Source: an uncultured Clostridia bacterium (GTDB taxonomy: Bacteria > Bacillota > Clostridia > Christensenellales > CAG-138). Taken from it: a stretch of 37,318 bases of DNA. Location of the stretch: contig CAMVGD010000011.1 of NCBI GenBank assembly GCA_947166925.1, positions 1-37,318 of the forward strand, given 5' to 3'. Positions 3,330 through 8,192 of the stretch are shown in pieces; positions within the stretch are counted from its first letter, which is position 1; every line of letters starts with the position of its first letter. The notes under the pieces are model-generated. The model was not told the DNA's origin, ran no database searches, and saw only the letters and a program-made list of their open reading frames with translations. The translations under genes and the position numbers were made by a program.

Positions 3330-4508
3330 TCAGTCCGCGTAGTTGTTGAAATAGTTCTGCACCAGAACGATCGGCGTACCCTTGTCGCCGCTGCCGCTCG
3401 TGAGGTCGCACAGCGAGCCGATGAGGTCGGTGAGCCGTCTCGGCGTCGTGCCCTGCGAATCCATCCGCCCCTTGAGGTCCTTTTCCTTCTCGCGGATGCG
3501 GGCGCGGATCGCCGCGGTGAGCGCCTCGCCGGACAGCGCCTTGAATTCGTTGTCCGCAAGGTACTTGAGCTTCAGCTCGTTCGGAAGCCCAATAAGCCCG
3601 TCGGTAAAGCCCGGGGAAACGACCGGGTCCGCAAGCTCCCAGATCTTGCCGACCGGATCCTTGAACGCGCCGTCGCCGTAGACCATCGCCTCGACATGCA
3701 CGCCCGTGCGCGCCAGGATCTCCTTCTGGATCGCGAACGCGACCTCGCGCGCATTTTTCGGGAACAGCTTGACGCGGTTCTCCGTCGCCTTATTCGAGCC
3801 CAGAAGCCCGTAATCCGGCTGGAAGCCGCTGCCGTTCCGGGGTGCGTTCATAATGTCGCACAGCGTCAGAACGCGCGCTGCGCCGGCTTTTTGAAGCCGT
3901 CTTGCGGTGCGCTCGCGCTCGTGGATGTTGCTGACGAGCACGCTGTCGGTAAACCGGAGGATCGCCGTCGGATCGTTCGCGAGAATGATCTCCGCCTCGG
4001 CGCCCTCCTCCTCGATCAGCGAGCGGTAATACGCGAGGTAGTTCACGCCCGTGAACGGATGGCACGGCTCGCCGAACTTTGCGACGAATTCCGCCTCCGT
4101 AAACACGTCTGCGTACGGATTCACGCCCGCGTCAAGCAGCGCGTCCTCGTCGATCAGGTGGTTGCCCTCCTCGTCGGCCGGATAGGACAGCTGTACGACG
4201 ATCTTCTTTGCCCCGCGCGCAATGCCGCGAAGACAGATCGCAAACCGGTTGCGGCTCATGATCGGGAAGACCACGCCCACCGTATCGCCGAGCTTCTCAT
4301 GCACGTCCGCGGAAATGTCGTCCACCGTGCAGTAGTTGCCGTCCGCACGCGCCACGACCGCCTCCGTGACCGCGATCACGTCGCGCGTATGCAGGGAAAA
4401 GCCTTCCTCCTGCGCAGCCTGCAGCACGGAATCGACGACGATCTTCACGATGTCGTCGCCCTCGCGGATGATCGGCGCCTTGACGCCTCTTGAAATCGTT
4501 CCTGCCAT
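3330..4508 (-). CDS. Coenzyme F420-0:L-glutamate ligase (CofE)-like protein
   Basis: 392 residues from the ATG at 4508, chosen because GGGAGG precedes it by about 9 nt; an earlier in-frame ATG abuts the ribosome binding site and another lies at or above the promoter. The N-terminal half (VIAVTEAVVARADGNY, about residues 44-59) matches the beta strand plus VTEkVVskAeG phrase of the CofE fold. Later come an Asn/Asp-rich LCDIMNAPRNGSGF stretch and VYGDGAFKDPVG, plausible GTP/metal-binding loops. CofE adds glutamate to F420-0, yet nothing else in the window points to F420. Related proteins in Clostridia may be amide ligases for another acceptor. It is monocistronic, with its own strong promoter and a terminator on each side. 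Confidence 0.6.
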   Translation of the reverse strand: MAGTISRGVKAPIIREGDDIVKIVVDSVLQAAQEEGFSLHTRDVIAVTEAVVARADGNYCTVDDISADVHEKLGDTVGVVFPIMSRNRFAICLRGIARGAKKIVVQLSYPADEEGNHLIDEDALLDAGVNPYADVFTEAEFVAKFGEPCHPFTGVNYLAYYRSLIEEEGAEAEIILANDPTAILRFTDSVLVSNIHERERTARRLQKAGAARVLTLCDIMNAPRNGSGFQPDYGLLGSNKATENRVKLFPKNAREVAFAIQKEILARTGVHVEAMVYGDGAFKDPVGKIWELADPVVSPGFTDGLIGLPNELKLKYLADNEFKALSGEALTAAIRARIREKEKDLKGRMDSQGTTPRRLTDLIGSLCDLTSGSGDKGTPIVLVQNYFNNYAD

Positions 4509-4548
4509 AAAAAACATCCTCCCTTTCGAGATGCAAAAAACAAAATTT

Positions 4549-4577
4549 ACAATACAAAAATACGGCGTATTTGTCAA
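4549..4577 (-). promoter_or_regulatory. Sigma-A promoter of the CofE-like gene
   Basis: TTGACA (4577-4572), 17-bp spacer, TATTGT (4554-4549), in an A/T-rich context. Transcription should begin near 4542, giving a leader of about 35 nt that carries GGGAGG. Confidence 0.75.
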
Positions 4578-4596
4578 GAAAAATCTGTGCGCGCGC

Positions 4597-4621
4597 AAAG
4601 AAAAAGAGCGCGTGCGCGCTC
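4597..4621 (-). terminator. Terminator of the CarD-family gene
   Basis: GAGCGC and GCGCTC (4606-4621, loop of 4) followed on the minus strand by TTTTTCTTT (4605-4597), 12 nt beyond the stop codon of the gene at 4634. Confidence 0.75.
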
Positions 4622-4633
4622 ATCGCCGGATCG

Positions 4634-5107
4634 TCAGTTTGCGCCGACCAGCGGAAGGAAATTGGACTCGTCCGAGTTCGTCGCCGCGGCAAGCTCCGCA
4701 ACCAGCACCTGACGCGCGGTCAGGAACATCTTGCGCTCGCCCGCGGACAGTCCGCGCTCGCGGTCCCGGCGCATCAGGCACTTCACCACGTCCGCCACGA
4801 CCATGATGTCGCCGCTGCGCAGCTTGTCCAGATTGTCGCGATACCGCTGGTTCCAGTTGTCGCTTTCCGCGGAGCAGTCGTCGCTTCCCAGAAAGGCCAC
4901 GACCCGTTCGCAGGTTTCCGCATCGGCCAGCGCGCGAAGCCCGACCGCCTCCGCCCGCTTCACCGGCACCATCGCCGTCATGCGTCCGATGGTGAACCGC
5001 AGCCGGTAGTACTGCGCCGTTTCATCCAGAATGGTTTGTTCTTCGATCGCCTCCACCACGCCGACGCCGTGCATCGGATAGCAGACGAGATCCCCGACCT
5101 GAAACAC
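4634..5107 (-). CDS. CarD/CdnL-family RNA polymerase-binding regulator
   Basis: 157 residues. CarD-family proteins bind the RNA polymerase beta subunit through an N-terminal Tudor-like (TRCF-RID) domain and stabilise open complexes with a helical C-terminal domain. Here residues 2-60 read FQVGDLVCYPMHGVGVVEAI, the family hallmark; the rest is helical with a conserved Trp in DNWNQRYRDNL. The start is the GTG at 5107: GGAGG lies 7 nt upstream, the family normally begins with M-F-x-V-G-D, and the promoter at 5141-5170 puts the transcription start near 5134, excluding longer readings. It is monocistronic with its own promoter and terminator. It probably acts on rRNA and housekeeping promoters, as known for the family. 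Confidence 0.88.
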   Translation of the reverse strand: MFQVGDLVCYPMHGVGVVEAIEEQTILDETAQYYRLRFTIGRMTAMVPVKRAEAVGLRALADAETCERVVAFLGSDDCSAESDNWNQRYRDNLDKLRSGDIMVVADVVKCLMRRDRERGLSAGERKMFLTARQVLVAELAAATNSDESNFLPLVGAN

Positions 5108-5140
5108 CGGATTTCCCTCCTTCAACATTCTCTCAAGAAT

Positions 5141-5170
5141 ATTATAGCTGAAAAAACGAGCTCCTGTCAA
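5141..5170 (-). promoter_or_regulatory. Near-consensus sigma-A promoter of the CarD-family gene
   Basis: TTGACA (5170-5165), 18-bp spacer, TATAAT (5146-5141). Both hexamers are perfect. The leader is about 27 nt and ends at the GTG start at 5107. Confidence 0.85.
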
Positions 5171-5226
5171 ATAAAAAATTTACAATACCACAAGAAAGTT
5201 TTTCTGTCAAGCGCTTTTTCCGCATC

Positions 5227-5250
5227 AAAAAAAGCCGGAAGACCCGGCTT
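5227..5250 (-). terminator. Terminator downstream of the Pro/Thr-rich gene
   Basis: AAGCCGG (5232-5238) pairs with CCGGCTT (5244-5250), loop of 5; on the minus strand it is followed by a run of T (5233-5227). It lies 117 bp past the stop codon at 5367, beyond the direct-repeat copy at 5271-5318. Confidence 0.8.
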
Positions 5251-5270
5251 GTCGCGTGCAGAGGGCCCGA

Positions 5271-5318
5271 TCCGGCGGATCGTCCCGGTCATTTTTGAGA
5301 AACCGCGCGCTGCCGCGC
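5271..5318 (-). repeat. Direct repeat copy B: duplicate of the 3' end of the radical SAM gene
   Basis: These 48 bp match 6331-6378 at 46 positions in the same orientation, offset 1060 bp. In the 6.3-kb copy they encode the C-terminus (SARFLKNYRDDPLD). Homology continues left as GATCCGG after a 9-bp gap that removes the stop codon. The copy is not part of an intact gene here: it lies between the stop of the Pro/Thr-rich gene and a terminator. Confidence 0.85.
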
Positions 5319-5366
5319 GCATTCTGCCGATCAAACTGCCTCTCCCGATCCCGGAATCCGCGTCTC

Positions 5367-6128
5367 TTACGGTCTCGGCAGAAACGTCGCCGGCGGGATC
5401 GTCACCGGAGGTTTTGTCACCGGTGCAATCGTCGGCGCAGGCGTGTTCGTCGGTGCAGGCGTCGCCGTCGGAGCAGGCGTGTTCGTCGGCGCAGGCGTCG
5501 CCGTCGGTGAAGGCGCAGGCGTCCGCGAGGGCGCAGGCGTAGGCGTCCGCGTCGGCGTCGGTGAAGGCGTCGCCGTCGGAGCAAGCGTCCTCGGTTTACG
5601 CGAAGGCGCAGTCGTCGGTGATGCGGTCGGCACGGATGTCAGCGCCGCGGTCGGGGACGCGACCGGCGTCGGCGTTTCCGTCGGTATTTCTGTCGGCTCC
5701 GCGGTCGGCGTTTCCGTCGGTTCTTCCGACGGTTCCTCCGTCGGTTCAGCCGCAGTCGGCGGCGCATCCGTGGGATCGGGCGGCGGTACCGCGGCGGGAT
5801 TCGTTTTGCCGCAGGTCGTGCATGCAAGCAGCGCCGCGACGGCGCATAACACAACGGCTGCGATCACCGCAAGTATCGCCAGGAGCAGGATCTTTCTTTT
5901 TCTCCGTCTCTCCTCTTTTTCGCGCGCAATGCGTTCCCTTTCCCGCTTCGCCGGGGAAGATGCGCGCGCCGGTCTGTTATGACGCGCTGTATCCGGTTCG
6001 TCTTCTTTTGCTGCCGGAGCCTTGCGCAGGGCGGGCTGATCGTCCGGGGACAGTCCGGTCGGCATCCCGCACAATTTGCAGATCTTCTCGTCGGCTGAAA
6101 TCAATTTGCCGCAATTCGGACAGACCAC
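5367..6128 (-). CDS. Zinc-ribbon, single-pass membrane protein with Pro/Thr-rich repeat tail
   Basis: 253 residues from a GTG start preceded by AGGAGG at 9 nt. Order: zinc ribbon with CPNC and CKLC at about residues 3-20; charged cytoplasmic linker rich in Arg/Lys/Glu; transmembrane helix at about 80-104 (ILLLAILAVIAAVVLCAVAA); then about 145 extracellular residues dominated by Pro, Thr, Ala and Glu in x-P-T repeats. The last part contains two identical 12-residue units (ATPAPTNTPAPT) coded by a 36-bp tandem repeat. Such tails act as wall-spanning or glycosylated stalks in other proteins; here no distal functional domain follows. It has its own promoter and terminator and lies between two 48-bp direct repeats. 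Function unknown. Confidence 0.8.
   Translation of the reverse strand: MVCPNCGKLISADEKICKLCGMPTGLSPDDQPALRKAPAAKEDEPDTARHNRPARASSPAKRERERIAREKEERRRKRKILLLAILAVIAAVVLCAVAALLACTTCGKTNPAAVPPPDPTDAPPTAAEPTEEPSEEPTETPTAEPTEIPTETPTPVASPTAALTSVPTASPTTAPSRKPRTLAPTATPSPTPTRTPTPAPSRTPAPSPTATPAPTNTPAPTATPAPTNTPAPTIAPVTKPPVTIPPATFLPRP
5443..5514 (-). repeat. 36-bp tandem repeat inside the Pro/Thr-rich gene
   Basis: Copies at 5443-5478 and 5479-5514 differ at only a few bases. Flanking sequence is built of related 12-18 bp units. The period is a multiple of three, so copy-number change would lengthen or shorten the extracellular tail without shifting frame. Confidence 0.75.
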
Positions 6129-6226
6129 AGTTTTAAACCTCCTGCCCGTATTCTTTGTCCGTCGCCGGTCTCAGACGCATTCAAATGCGTATCCGGCTTC
6201 GGACGCACGGGACATATAGCTTATCC

Positions 6227-6287: not shown

Positions 6288-6311
6288 AAAAAAGCGCCGG
6301 ACAGCCGGCGC
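6288..6311 (-). terminator. Terminator of the radical SAM operon
   Basis: GCGCCGG (6294-6300) pairs with CCGGCGC (6305-6311), loop of 4, followed on the minus strand by TTTTTT (6293-6288). It is 16 bp past the radical SAM stop codon. Confidence 0.85.
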
Positions 6312-6326
6312 AAAAGCACGATCCGG

Positions 6327-7406
6327 TCAATCCAGCGGATCGTCCCGGTAATTTTTGAGAAACCGCGCGCTGCCGCGCTCGTACAGCCGCGCCGCAAGCC
6401 CGTCCGCGATCGGGATCAGGATGCGCTCGTGCTCGCACTGCACCGGTGCCACCTCGTGCAGCTTGCCGGTCAGCGAATAGTTCAGGCAGGCGCAGTGGTG
6501 ACGGCAGCGGTCCGCGATCGCGCAGCCCTCGCAGTCCGGTTCGGGGTCCAGCGACGCGCGGTAGATCGCCCGCTGCTTCTCCCGGTCGATCCCGTTCTCT
6601 ACGTCGCCCATGCAGAAGTTTGGATCGTCCAGGAACTGATTGCAGGGATAGATCCTGCCGTCCGGCGCGACCGACGGCTGCCGCATGCCGAGCTTGCACT
6701 CGATGCACGGACGGTCATTCAGATACGCCGAGATCTTGGACAGGAAATTCAGATACTGCAGCGGACGCTTATCGTCGAAATGCGCTTCCGAAAGGTCCGC
6801 GATGCGCGCGTACTGCTCCGCAAGGATCGCCATCGAAGCGTCGTCCCAGCCCGCGTTCGGGCGATAGTCAATCGCCGTGTTGATCCGCGAAAAACCGCGT
6901 CGATAAAGCCACTCGACCGATTCCGCCATCCGATCGACGGTCGACGGCATCACGGTCTGCATCGCGACCGCGTTCGGCTGATATTTGAGAAGCAGGTCGA
7001 CGATCGGCTCGAGCCGTTCCAACGTGGGGCTGCCGTCCCGTGTGACGCGCTGAGCGTCCTCAAGAAGTCCGTCGTGCGAGATCGCGATCTCCAGACCATG
7101 TTCGTTCGCAAAGCGCAGAAACGGCTCGTCAAGAAGCGTACCGTTGGTCGTCATCTTGAACCGTATCTCCGTGCCGGTTGCCTTCGCCTTTTCACAGGCA
7201 TAGCGGCAGACGGATTCGACCGTCGCCCGCTCGAGCATCGGCTCGCCGCCGAACAGCGAAAAGCCGTTCTTCTCATGCCCATAGGTAAACGCGAGATCGA
7301 CGGCTTTTAACGCCGTCTCCTCCGTCATGCGGCGCTTCGAATGCGTTTCGTAACAATAACGGCAGGCCAAATTACAGTCTGCCGTCAGATGAAGTGTAAA
7401 ATTCAT
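6327..7406 (-). CDS. Radical SAM/SPASM maturase, candidate modifier of the two upstream peptides
   Basis: 359 residues. The radical SAM cluster motif CNLACRYC gives Cys11, Cys15 and Cys18; GGEP (53-56) contacts SAM. The C-terminal SPASM-type region binds auxiliary Fe-S clusters and holds Cys234, 237, 255, 265, 292, 295, 301, 305, 307 and 324, including PDGRIYPCNQF, the usual SPASM phrase. This layout belongs to the anaerobic sulfatase maturase/peptide maturase branch that modifies polypeptides; no sulfatase is nearby. It starts 9 nt after the second small lipoprotein gene with its own GAGGAG, so all three form one operon. The enzyme has no recognisable RRE domain at its N-terminus, where the SAM motif begins almost at once. 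The last 48 bp of the gene are duplicated at 5271-5318. Confidence 0.9.
   Translation of the reverse strand: MNFTLHLTADCNLACRYCYETHSKRRMTEETALKAVDLAFTYGHEKNGFSLFGGEPMLERATVESVCRYACEKAKATGTEIRFKMTTNGTLLDEPFLRFANEHGLEIAISHDGLLEDAQRVTRDGSPTLERLEPIVDLLLKYQPNAVAMQTVMPSTVDRMAESVEWLYRRGFSRINTAIDYRPNAGWDDASMAILAEQYARIADLSEAHFDDKRPLQYLNFLSKISAYLNDRPCIECKLGMRQPSVAPDGRIYPCNQFLDDPNFCMGDVENGIDREKQRAIYRASLDPEPDCEGCAIADRCRHHCACLNYSLTGKLHEVAPVQCEHERILIPIADGLAARLYERGSARFLKNYRDDPLD
6331..6378 (-). repeat. Direct repeat copy A: 3' end of the radical SAM gene
   Basis: Partner of 5271-5318 (46 of 48 bp identical, same orientation). This copy is the functional C-terminal coding end of the radical SAM gene. The pair brackets a 1,060-bp unit that contains just the Pro/Thr-rich gene with its promoter, plus the radical SAM terminator. 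Confidence 0.85.
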
Positions 7407-7415
7407 AATCGCTCC

Positions 7416-7766
7416 TCACGGATTCTCCGTCTCCTCGGGCACGGTGATCTTGCCCTGCAGGGCGGGCTCCTCACGACCGTCCGATCCGTCTTCTCCGTCC
7501 ATGATGATCTCTCCGTTCTCGTCGACCGCAGGTTCGCCCGGCTCCATCAGATTGTCGTCCAGACCGGGGTCGATCGTGGTCTCGCCGTCGAGCACCAGTT
7601 CTTCCGGCGGGATCGGCTCCGGCATCACGTCTCCGCTCAGCAGGACTTCCTGTGTGCAGCCAGCCGTGCCCGCAAGCGCGACCGCCGCCGCGGTCGTCAG
7701 GATCGCGCCGCGCAAAAGCTTTTTCGGATAACTCGGACGATAGTCCTTGACCTTGCTCTGCTTCAT
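7416..7766 (-). CDS. Small lipoprotein-like peptide 2, candidate substrate of the radical SAM enzyme
   Basis: 116 residues; AAGGAGG overlaps the stop of the preceding gene and the ATG follows 11 nt after that stop. Residues 9-16 are YRPSYPKK, then a hydrophobic segment 21-36 and Cys37 in TAGC, a lipobox-like site. The rest (38-116) is strongly acidic, Pro/Gly-rich and without any Cys, Trp, Tyr, Phe or His. It contains spaced modules around a single Gly: EVLLSGDVMPEP (40-51), ELVLDGETTIDP (56-67), EIIMDGEDGSDG (86-97). It aligns without gaps with the upstream peptide through residue 41. The pairing with a SPASM enzyme suggests a modified secreted lipopeptide, which is inference. A plain lipoprotein is the alternative. 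Confidence 0.75.
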   Translation of the reverse strand: MKQSKVKDYRPSYPKKLLRGAILTTAAAVALAGTAGCTQEVLLSGDVMPEPIPPEELVLDGETTIDPGLDDNLMEPGEPAVDENGEIIMDGEDGSDGREEPALQGKITVPEETENP

Positions 7767-7777
7767 TTTCTTCCTCC

Positions 7778-8104
7778 TTACGGCATATCGTCGAGGATCG
7801 CGACGTCGCCCATCAGCTCAAGCTCATCCGTCCCGGTCGGCTCCGGCGTCGGTTCCGCAAGCGGCGCGCCGGGCGTCATCAGCGGTTCCTCGACCGGGAC
7901 CATGCCCTCCGTCTGGACCTCTCCGGGCGGAACGGTCTCCTCGATCCCCGGCTCGTCCATCGGTACAAGGCCGGTCGTCTGGACCTCGGCACGGCATCCG
8001 GTCATCGCACCGAGCGCCAGAAGCGCCGCGGCGGCGAGCGTCACGCCCTTTTTCATCTTCTTCGGATAGTTCGGCTTGTAGCCGGAGAGTTGTTGCTGTT
8101 TCAT
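7778..8104 (-). CDS. Small lipoprotein-like peptide 1, candidate substrate of the radical SAM enzyme
   Basis: 108 residues from the ATG at 8104 (GGGAG 8-9 nt upstream). Residues 9-16 are YKPNYPKK, followed by a hydrophobic segment 21-36 and Cys37 in MTGC (lipobox-like). The exported part has two clear 22-residue repeats, EVQTTGLVPMDEP (40-52) and EVQTEGMVPVEEP (62-74), and a third looser unit ELELMGDVAILDDMP (94-108). It contains no Cys, Trp, Tyr, Phe, His or Lys after residue 38 apart from none seen. First gene of the three-gene operon, after the prs terminator. The shared N-terminus with peptide 2 looks like a recognition and export leader, and the repeats look like multiple cores. Confidence 0.75.
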   Translation of the reverse strand: MKQQQLSGYKPNYPKKMKKGVTLAAAALLALGAMTGCRAEVQTTGLVPMDEPGIEETVPPGEVQTEGMVPVEEPLMTPGAPLAEPTPEPTGTDELELMGDVAILDDMP

Positions 8105-8162: not shown

Positions 8163-8192
8163 AAAAAGGGGGAACGAACCGTTCGTCCCCCC
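8163..8192 (-). terminator. Terminator of prs
   Basis: On the minus strand GGGGGGACGAA pairs with TTCGTTCCCCC (8192-8168) with one G-T pair, followed by TTTTT (8167-8163). It separates prs from the small lipoprotein operon; no convincing promoter for that operon is seen between 8105 and 8162. Confidence 0.8.

Follow-up and report, generated by a model that had tools for sequence, protein, structure and literature searches.

A candidate radical SAM/SPASM system for the modification of leader-bearing lipoproteins in Clostridia

The 37,318-nucleotide contig CAMVGD010000011.1 of an uncultured Clostridia bacterium (assembly GCA_947166925.1, 2.53 Mb in 145 contigs), referred to here at its full length as the window, carries a compact three-gene operon coding for two small paralogous lipoproteins, which we term precursors A and B, and a radical SAM/SPASM enzyme. 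Judging by the features described below, these genes probably constitute a two-component lipoprotein-modifying system, in which the enzyme would bind the leader of each precursor and modify glycine motifs before lipoprotein export. In the proposed pathway, the cytoplasmic enzyme would recognize the N-terminal leader (x-P-x-Y-P) of each precursor and install radical modifications at repeated glycine-centred, beta-strand-like motifs. After export by way of the signal peptide, the modified precursor would acquire a lipid at the lipobox Cys, and cleavage by signal peptidase II would take off the leader together with the signal peptide; the end product would be a multiply modified, membrane-anchored protein on the cell surface. 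Operon, leader, lipobox, repeats, enzyme–leader pairing and intact SPASM cysteines are all present in the sequences, and from them we infer the role of the small proteins as substrates, guidance of the enzyme by the leader, modification at the motif and this order of events. As no signal was seen in the enzyme, which is thus predicted to be cytoplasmic, modification should precede export, an order that has been shown for DybA and NedA (PMC12636315). Lgt is encoded, with four homologues scoring over the cut-off.

Leader, lipobox and pairing with the enzyme

The two small proteins match without a gap over residues 1–41, as the earlier note had stated, and share Y-[KR]-P-[NS]-Y-P-K-K at positions 9–16, Cys37 and E40-V41; in a search within the genome, P0003 matched the P0002 open reading frame (ORF) at E = 1.2e-10. 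Among 30 aligned relatives, all picked for having the lipobox Cys, M1, Y13, P14 and this Cys are invariant, and Y9 and P11 are conserved in at least 90%. The pair is not a chance finding: in all 37.3 kb of the window, a rule combining leader and lipobox retrieved just two ORFs, and both are minus-strand. No match to precursor A was obtained in Pfam or NCBIfam at E ≤ 1, and precursor B gave weak matches, none of them over the cut-off.

In the family of the window, 57 leader ORFs (56 unique) were found upstream of 40 of 45 enzyme loci. The leader given in the earlier note, Y[KR]P[NS]YPKK, describes the window peptides correctly and is too narrow for their relatives, which are better represented by x-P-x-Y-P, with YKKPLYA and NYDAPRIP in other clades. 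Membrane tethering via the lipobox is likewise usual and not universal, as two of the 56 leader ORFs (those of L053 and L083), together with one more in L072, possess the leader but neither signal peptide nor lipobox nor any Cys. All three show a ribosome-binding-like site and motif-like stretches. The L053 and L083 ORFs look like real genes, because their differences by codon position (23, 18 and 40 over 76 codons) are biased towards the third position and purine-rich sites precede their starts. These two ORFs (L053:2382–2631 and its L083 counterpart; 82 and 86 aa) contain LTxEEALAILRSPAxEF and ELHAVGIVP, and their proteins are perhaps a cytoplasmic product of the same enzyme. Since the leader is conserved with or without a signal peptide, precedes the hydrophobic part and goes with the enzyme, it is probably the recognition sequence. 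Weak matches to the leader profile in G027, G054 and G100, and second weak ones in G078 and G079, cover the hydrophobic half only and lie within long ORFs; they were regarded as chance hydrophobic signal peptides and left uncounted.

After removal of duplicate enzyme sequences and of one locus cut inside the enzyme, 81 unique enzymes were scored, of which two (L171 and L172) are SCIFF-maturase outgroups and were left out; the f74 sample comprises 20 regions selected from 73 places. A leader-plus-lipobox protein was present nearby in 76 of the resulting 79 unique enzyme loci. The written rule, which takes a leader-plus-lipobox ORF within 2 kb upstream, found 72 of these; in L208 and L214 the upstream precursor was missed by the rule and is visible by eye, and in L107 and L075 a leader lipoprotein of the large type described below, judged by eye, lies downstream of the enzyme. 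As for the three loci lacking a precursor, L046 and L162 are at contig edges (L162 shows the end of a large lipoprotein), and in L167 the enzyme is broken and no precursor was seen. The background of the rule amounted to 10 matches in 570.6 kb, a count biased low as it was made for each locus on the strand with fewer matches, and the rule gave none in L171 and L172, both confirmed as SCIFF maturases by scores (680.9 and 676 bits) that exceed the cut-off of 425.

The family is represented by 103 genomes; 43 of them contain an enzyme orthologue (E ≤ 1e-70), 41 a strong match to the leader profile and 40 both. The enzyme without a small precursor was found in G059, at a contig edge, and in G015 and G101, where the leader is carried by larger lipoproteins. 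The earlier note had proposed looking for small proteins without a radical SAM partner, and these came down to a single leader-positive family genome, the incomplete G076, where the leader match occupies positions 6060–6179 of a 6310-base contig and no enzyme match was obtained. Leader matches outside an enzyme locus in G043 and G049 are no more than 100 bases away from a contig start, on the strand running off the contig. A second large lipoprotein in G559 (L108) is likewise close to the start of a contig, and the 6 kb read there contained no enzyme; orphan precursors were seen at contig ends only.

Complete pairs occur in nine family labels (f1, f52, f73, f74, f96, f98, f99, f159 and f165); in f47 the pair is truncated. 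The distribution of the system is patchy: at the level of the order, enzyme matches (E ≤ 1e-45) were obtained in 10 of 396 genomes, all belonging to the window's own family, at the level of the class, with the same threshold, in 18 of 391 genomes, two of them being SCIFF maturases, and in a phylum sample (E ≤ 1e-50) in 5 of 398. The phylum search added L227 and L228, each with a large leader lipoprotein upstream, fitting the pairing, and L229 (33% identity), which has a different kind of neighbour. In L229, the enzyme relative adjoins a Nif11/NHLP-like small protein, a label given by eye (1645–2076 and 413–1570, both on the minus strand). Related named records all concern uncultured Clostridia, and several come from samples of rumen, omasum or reticulum. 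These wider pairing data support the earlier note, which had read the operon as a candidate undescribed system in which the small lipoproteins encoded immediately upstream would be substrates of the radical SAM/SPASM enzyme.

In f73, f96, f98, f159 and f165, as well as in G015 and G101, the partner is a lipoprotein of approximately 220–320 aa (25–30 kDa, up to 35 kDa). Its plan comprises a leader (for example, VKTYKKPGYPDK), a transmembrane stretch, a Cys, a short linker, the motif and a further domain. The motif reads GSFGCVSVAPP, or AVLAGDMYV in f98, and the further domain starts with [FY]LSEEEA or FTEDEG; both VVLAGDAYV and AVLAGDMYV are found in 25 kDa proteins. The 320 aa partner in L075 combines the small-type motif PPLDGDMLPP with a large-type domain start, FPYLSEADALQII, and G842 possesses both kinds of partner, the large (L212) and the small (L213), each adjoining its own enzyme. 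In an enzyme tree rooted on SCIFF maturases (FastTree; branch support was not inspected), large types are placed on outer branches and most small-repeat types share a single inner branch. The two large lipoproteins tested gave no match above a cut-off in either Pfam or NCBIfam. The clades thus differ in the rest of the protein yet keep leader, lipobox and motif.

A repeated glycine-centred motif

Beyond the observations of the earlier note, the present analysis adds a glycine-centred repeat, hairpins after prs and after the enzyme gene, and a wide distribution. The exported parts of both precursors are built on a repeat of approximately h-x-[L/T/I]-x-G-x-[V/I/P]-x-[V/I], with four copies (one of them weak) in A and three in B. 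The motif was obtained by a non-overlapping expectation-maximization search that was not instructed to centre on glycine and that supersedes an earlier soft expectation-maximization run, in which two registers were mixed. In the family, this search returned a nine-residue motif with an invariant Gly at 194 sites in 55 of 55 exported parts. In the other clades, for which 28 of 32 exported parts were used and four large-domain proteins left out, 94 sites were found in 27 of the 28 small exported parts. Preferred residues are L/T/I or L/I/Y at −2 relative to the Gly, E/D at +1 and V/I at +2 and +4.

With fewer seeds, the family set gave 188 sites and a score of 2141, as compared with 54–58 sites and scores of 362–390 in four shuffles, and the second set gave 92 sites and a score of 1033, as compared with 25–35 sites and 203–287 in three shuffles. 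Regular expressions derived from the family were enriched as well in the 32 exported parts of other clades; [LTIM].G[DE], for example, occurred 58 times against 16.3 ± 3.7. Besides leader and lipobox, the motif is the sole conserved feature of the small precursors; being conserved while its copy number varies, it behaves as expected of a modified core.

The absence of Cys, Trp, Tyr, Phe and His from the exported parts, to which the earlier note had drawn attention, holds for both window peptides and does not extend to the family, where 13 of 55 related exported parts are free of all five residues and 42 of Cys. Most characterized SPASM peptide maturases use Cys or aromatic acceptors; if the proposed reading is correct, the substrates here do without them, which makes a new or rare reaction likely. 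As Cys is usually absent from the motif, we favour, for the small precursors, modification of an aliphatic side-chain or of glycine, or epimerization, rather than a thioether; candidate products would be a cyclopropane, a crosslink, a desaturation or an epimer at aliphatic residues or glycine.

The enzyme, alternative readings and the layout of the locus

The window enzyme belongs to the radical SAM superfamily by its Pfam Radical_SAM (PF04055) score of 62.4 bits against a cut-off of 29.5, whereas its SPASM (PF13186) score of 17.1 bits is below the cut-off of 21.5. It nevertheless follows the seven-Cys SPASM pattern, which we take to be C-x(9-15)-G-x4-C ... C-x2-C-x5-C-x3-C ... C, with Cys 237, 255, 292, 295, 301, 305 and 324. 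The CxxxCxxC at residues 11, 15 and 18 and the ten Cys in the C-terminal third described in the earlier note were both found again, the ten being located from residue 234 onwards. An additional Cys307, two residues past Cys305, is conserved in 75 of 76 aligned loci and is absent from CteB and from two SCIFF maturases. Enzymes shorter than 300 aa (L045, L111 and L167) were left out of the tree and of the Cys count; their genes show an in-frame stop (TGA in G064, TAG in G692) or are broken (G528), through decay or assembly error. The genome of the window encodes another SPASM enzyme, which has the size of a SCIFF maturase (G000:C5:27315–28328, 28% identity) and is apparently unrelated to the operon.

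An AlphaFold model of the enzyme (15 sequences) reached a pLDDT of 84.4 and a pTM of 0.84, with the CxxxCxxC loop region (residues 12–21) below 50. In a fold search with this model, CteB (5WHY) was the best solved match, with a TM score of 0.79 by query length, followed by AnSME and by ChlB, which was solved with its leader. The alignment with CteB starts at residue 4 of the enzyme and at residue 100 of CteB, and therefore the part of CteB that is N-terminal to the radical SAM domain, about 100 residues, is missing from the window enzyme, which begins directly with that domain.

The first alternative is that the enzyme is a ranthipeptide or thioether maker, joining a Cys to a neighbouring residue in the manner of PapB and ScfB. 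The top NCBIfam match of the window enzyme is indeed PapB (NF047865; 189.5 bits), five other clade representatives score 178–232 bits with the same model, and CteB, the nearest solved structure, is a thioether maker. Moreover, a Cys directly follows the motif Gly (GCVSVAPP-like) in one large-lipoprotein clade (L073, L074, L107–L110, L161, L212, L227 and L228). Every one of the PapB scores, however, is below the cut-off of 340, neither window precursor offers a Cys for a thioether in its exported part, the same is true of most exported parts in the family as given above, the three leader proteins without a lipobox are entirely Cys-free, and the large lipoproteins of f98 keep AGD[MA]YV without Cys. 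As an account of the whole system a thioether is thus improbable, and as general chemistry it was rejected for the small precursors, the one large-lipoprotein clade remaining a candidate.

Similarly unlikely is a reading in which the enzyme acts on the lipobox Cys or the leader region and the repeats are a mere cell-surface spacer. Leader and lipobox are the most conserved parts of these proteins, and acidic Pro/Glu-rich stretches are common spacers; against this, a nine-residue motif with an invariant Gly would be needless in a spacer and is kept across clades with approximately 35–45% enzyme identity, and leader proteins without a lipobox Cys exist. That the small proteins serve the enzyme as anchor, chaperone or electron donor, the true substrate lying elsewhere, is the least probable alternative: gene adjacency alone is no proof of substrate status and the 25–30 kDa partners have their own conserved domain, but paralogues that come in one to three copies, vary in repeat number and in sequence and share a short conserved leader are what is typically seen with substrates, and leader and motif stay constant while the partner shifts from 10 to 35 kDa.

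Several observations weigh against modification of the glycine motifs by a leader-guided enzyme as we propose it. Glycine is the only invariant position of the motif, and few SPASM precedents are known for glycine. Some Cys is present in 13 of 55 exported parts of the family and in 17 of 28 elsewhere, and the enzymes of the GCVSVAPP clade, whose best scores are with PapB, albeit below the cut-off, may perform thioether chemistry there. In L163 the enzyme (4356–5468, plus strand) has lost four SPASM cysteines (237, 255, 305 and 307) and yet still follows leader proteins, which have a divergent motif (GGAGMAMYIVHLTEQEAL). L229 indicates that another precursor class adjoins this enzyme family, and many of the loci are closely related, so that the counts are not independent.

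The positions of all features are listed in Table 1. The three ORFs lie where the earlier note had placed them, all on the minus strand, in the order precursor A, precursor B and enzyme, and are separated by 11 nt (7767–7777) and 9 nt (7407–7415), respectively. A prs gene is the upstream neighbour of precursor A, and terminator-like hairpins are found on either side of the operon. With three such hairpins in the region against 2.5 ± 1.5 in shuffles there is no excess, and it is their position rather than their number that argues for a separate three-gene unit. The gene downstream of the operon (5367–6128, minus strand), separated from it by a terminator-like hairpin, encodes a protein that starts like a zinc ribbon, has a single transmembrane stretch and ends in a long tail rich in Pro and Thr. 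Farther along, 3330–4598 (minus strand) encodes an F420-0:gamma-glutamyl ligase-like protein (Pfam F420_ligase, 184.6 bits), here in a rumen Clostridia genome.

Table 1. Features of the operon and its flanks, in window coordinates.
Feature	Position	Strand	Basis
Precursor lipoprotein A, 108 aa	7778..8104	-	ORF with leader, lipobox, 4 motif copies
Precursor lipoprotein B, 116 aa	7416..7766	-	ORF with leader, lipobox, 3 motif copies
Radical SAM/SPASM enzyme, 359 aa	6327..7406	-	Pfam Radical_SAM over cut-off; AlphaFold model
Leader motif YKPNYPKK, precursor A residues 9-16	8057..8080	-	Conservation in 30 aligned relatives
Leader motif YRPSYPKK, precursor B residues 9-16	7719..7742	-	Conservation in 30 aligned relatives
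Lipobox MTGC, precursor A residues 34-37	7994..8005	-	Cys37 invariant in 30 aligned relatives (picked for it)
Lipobox TAGC, precursor B residues 34-37	7656..7667	-	Cys37 invariant in 30 aligned relatives (picked for it)
Core motif A1 EVQTTGLVP	7961..7987	-	Motif model site, 12.7 bits
Core motif A2 EVQTEGMVP	7895..7921	-	Motif model site, 14.4 bits
Core motif A3 PLMTPGAPL (weak)	7859..7885	-	Motif model site, 5.7 bits
Core motif A4 ELELMGDVA	7799..7825	-	Motif model site, 18.4 bits
Core motif B1 EVLLSGDVM	7623..7649	-	Motif model site, 14.4 bits
Core motif B2 ELVLDGETT	7575..7601	-	Motif model site, 11.2 bits
Core motif B3 EPALQGKIT	7443..7469	-	Motif model site, 15.9 bits
CxxxCxxC motif (Cys 11, 15, 18)	7353..7376	-	Kept in 76/76 aligned loci
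SPASM cysteines 237, 255, 292, 295, 301, 305, 307, 324	6435..6698	-	Each in 75 or 76 of 76 aligned loci
Terminator-like hairpin between prs and precursor A	8168..8192	-	11 pairs (7 G-C), then TTTTT
Terminator-like hairpin 3' of enzyme gene	6294..6311	-	7 G-C pairs, then TTTTTT

Known systems and biological meaning

No NCBIfam or Pfam model covers the window peptides, and no curated NCBIfam cut-off is reached by the window enzyme. By profile and fold its nearest families are the PapB, SCIFF and Nif11 ranthipeptide maturases. It differs from them in scores far under the cut-offs (135.2 bits against 425 for the SCIFF maturase model TIGR03974, and likewise under the curated cut-off for the Nif11 model TIGR04064) and in precursors that are mostly Cys-free. 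Tight clustering with sulfatase maturases, together with a sulfatase in the genome, would have refuted the reading of the earlier note; the enzyme's score with the anaerobic sulfatase maturase model TIGR03942, 76.3 bits, is far below the cut-off of 349.45, the genome itself not having been searched for sulfatases. The pair TIGR04133/TIGR04134, presumably an rSAM/lipoprotein system, resembles the window in associating a radical SAM gene with a lipoprotein gene, and was rejected with an enzyme score of 34.4 bits against 425 and no TIGR04134 match of P0002 or P0003 at E ≤ 1. Graspetide-like chemistry, suggested by similar acidic repeats, was also set aside, as no ATP-grasp gene was noticed beside the loci read, although none was specifically searched for.

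A closer parallel is provided by the DAG-RiPPs, MNIO-made hybrids of lipoproteins and ribosomally synthesized and post-translationally modified peptides (RiPPs), which are a precedent for a cytoplasmic RiPP enzyme acting on a precursor with a lipoprotein signal, followed by lipoprotein export (PMC12636315). According to that paper, DAG-RiPP substrates range from small peptides to proteins of more than 30 kDa and may contain repeated modified motifs (EGKCG in NedA), which resembles the system proposed here. In contrast, their enzyme is an MNIO acting at sites of the CPACGMG, CxxxxC or EGKCG type, whereas the window encodes a radical SAM/SPASM enzyme and a Cys-poor, glycine-centred motif; and the ChrH/DybH subfamily recognizes a C-terminal motif (PMC12636315), whereas here an N-terminal leader would be recognized. 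The gene arrangement of DAG-RiPPs, a lipobox precursor beside a RiPP-type modifying enzyme, is present in the same 76 of 79 loci, and the DAG-RiPP authors suggest that RiPP-lipoproteins beyond MNIOs may exist (PMC12636315).

A precedent on the side of the chemistry is TvgB, a SPASM enzyme that acts on Val and makes poly-cyclopropylglycine on TVGG repeats (PMC9062424). Here as there, a SPASM enzyme accompanies a repeated, Cys-free aliphatic/glycine motif, and TvgB indicates that unactivated aliphatic residues can be the site. Its motif, leader and gene cluster differ from those of the window, and no TVGG repeat occurs in the window precursors. The TigE structure (8vpo) reached a TM score of 0.65 in the fold search and is more distant than CteB. 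In the open-licence PubMed Central literature, no description was found of this leader or of radical SAM-made lipoproteins, nor was the combination of a RiPP-lipoprotein hybrid with SPASM peptide maturation, two general kinds which the system fits, found described; new chemistry is a possibility.

More tentatively, and with less than even confidence, we suggest that surface lipoproteins, including 25–30 kDa proteins with a domain of their own, could be modified throughout the Clostridia by a radical SAM/SPASM enzyme devoid of a RiPP recognition element, which would introduce an as yet unseen backbone or aliphatic C-H modification at each glycine-centred beta-strand repeat. The products would be radical SAM DAG-RiPPs or DAG-proteins, with a structural or protective role at the surface being more probable than an antibiotic one.

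If the lipoprotein-modifying system proposed here is real, the shortness of its leader and the small size of its enzyme, which has no N-terminal domain, would make it convenient for testing, and leader removal, for which other RiPP pathways need a protease, would fall to the signal peptide. It would join RiPP-style tailoring to the general lipoprotein pathway, a connection described so far, in the one paper found, for MNIO enzymes (PMC12636315), and it would mean that gut and rumen Clostridia apply radical SAM chemistry to proteins anchored in the membrane.

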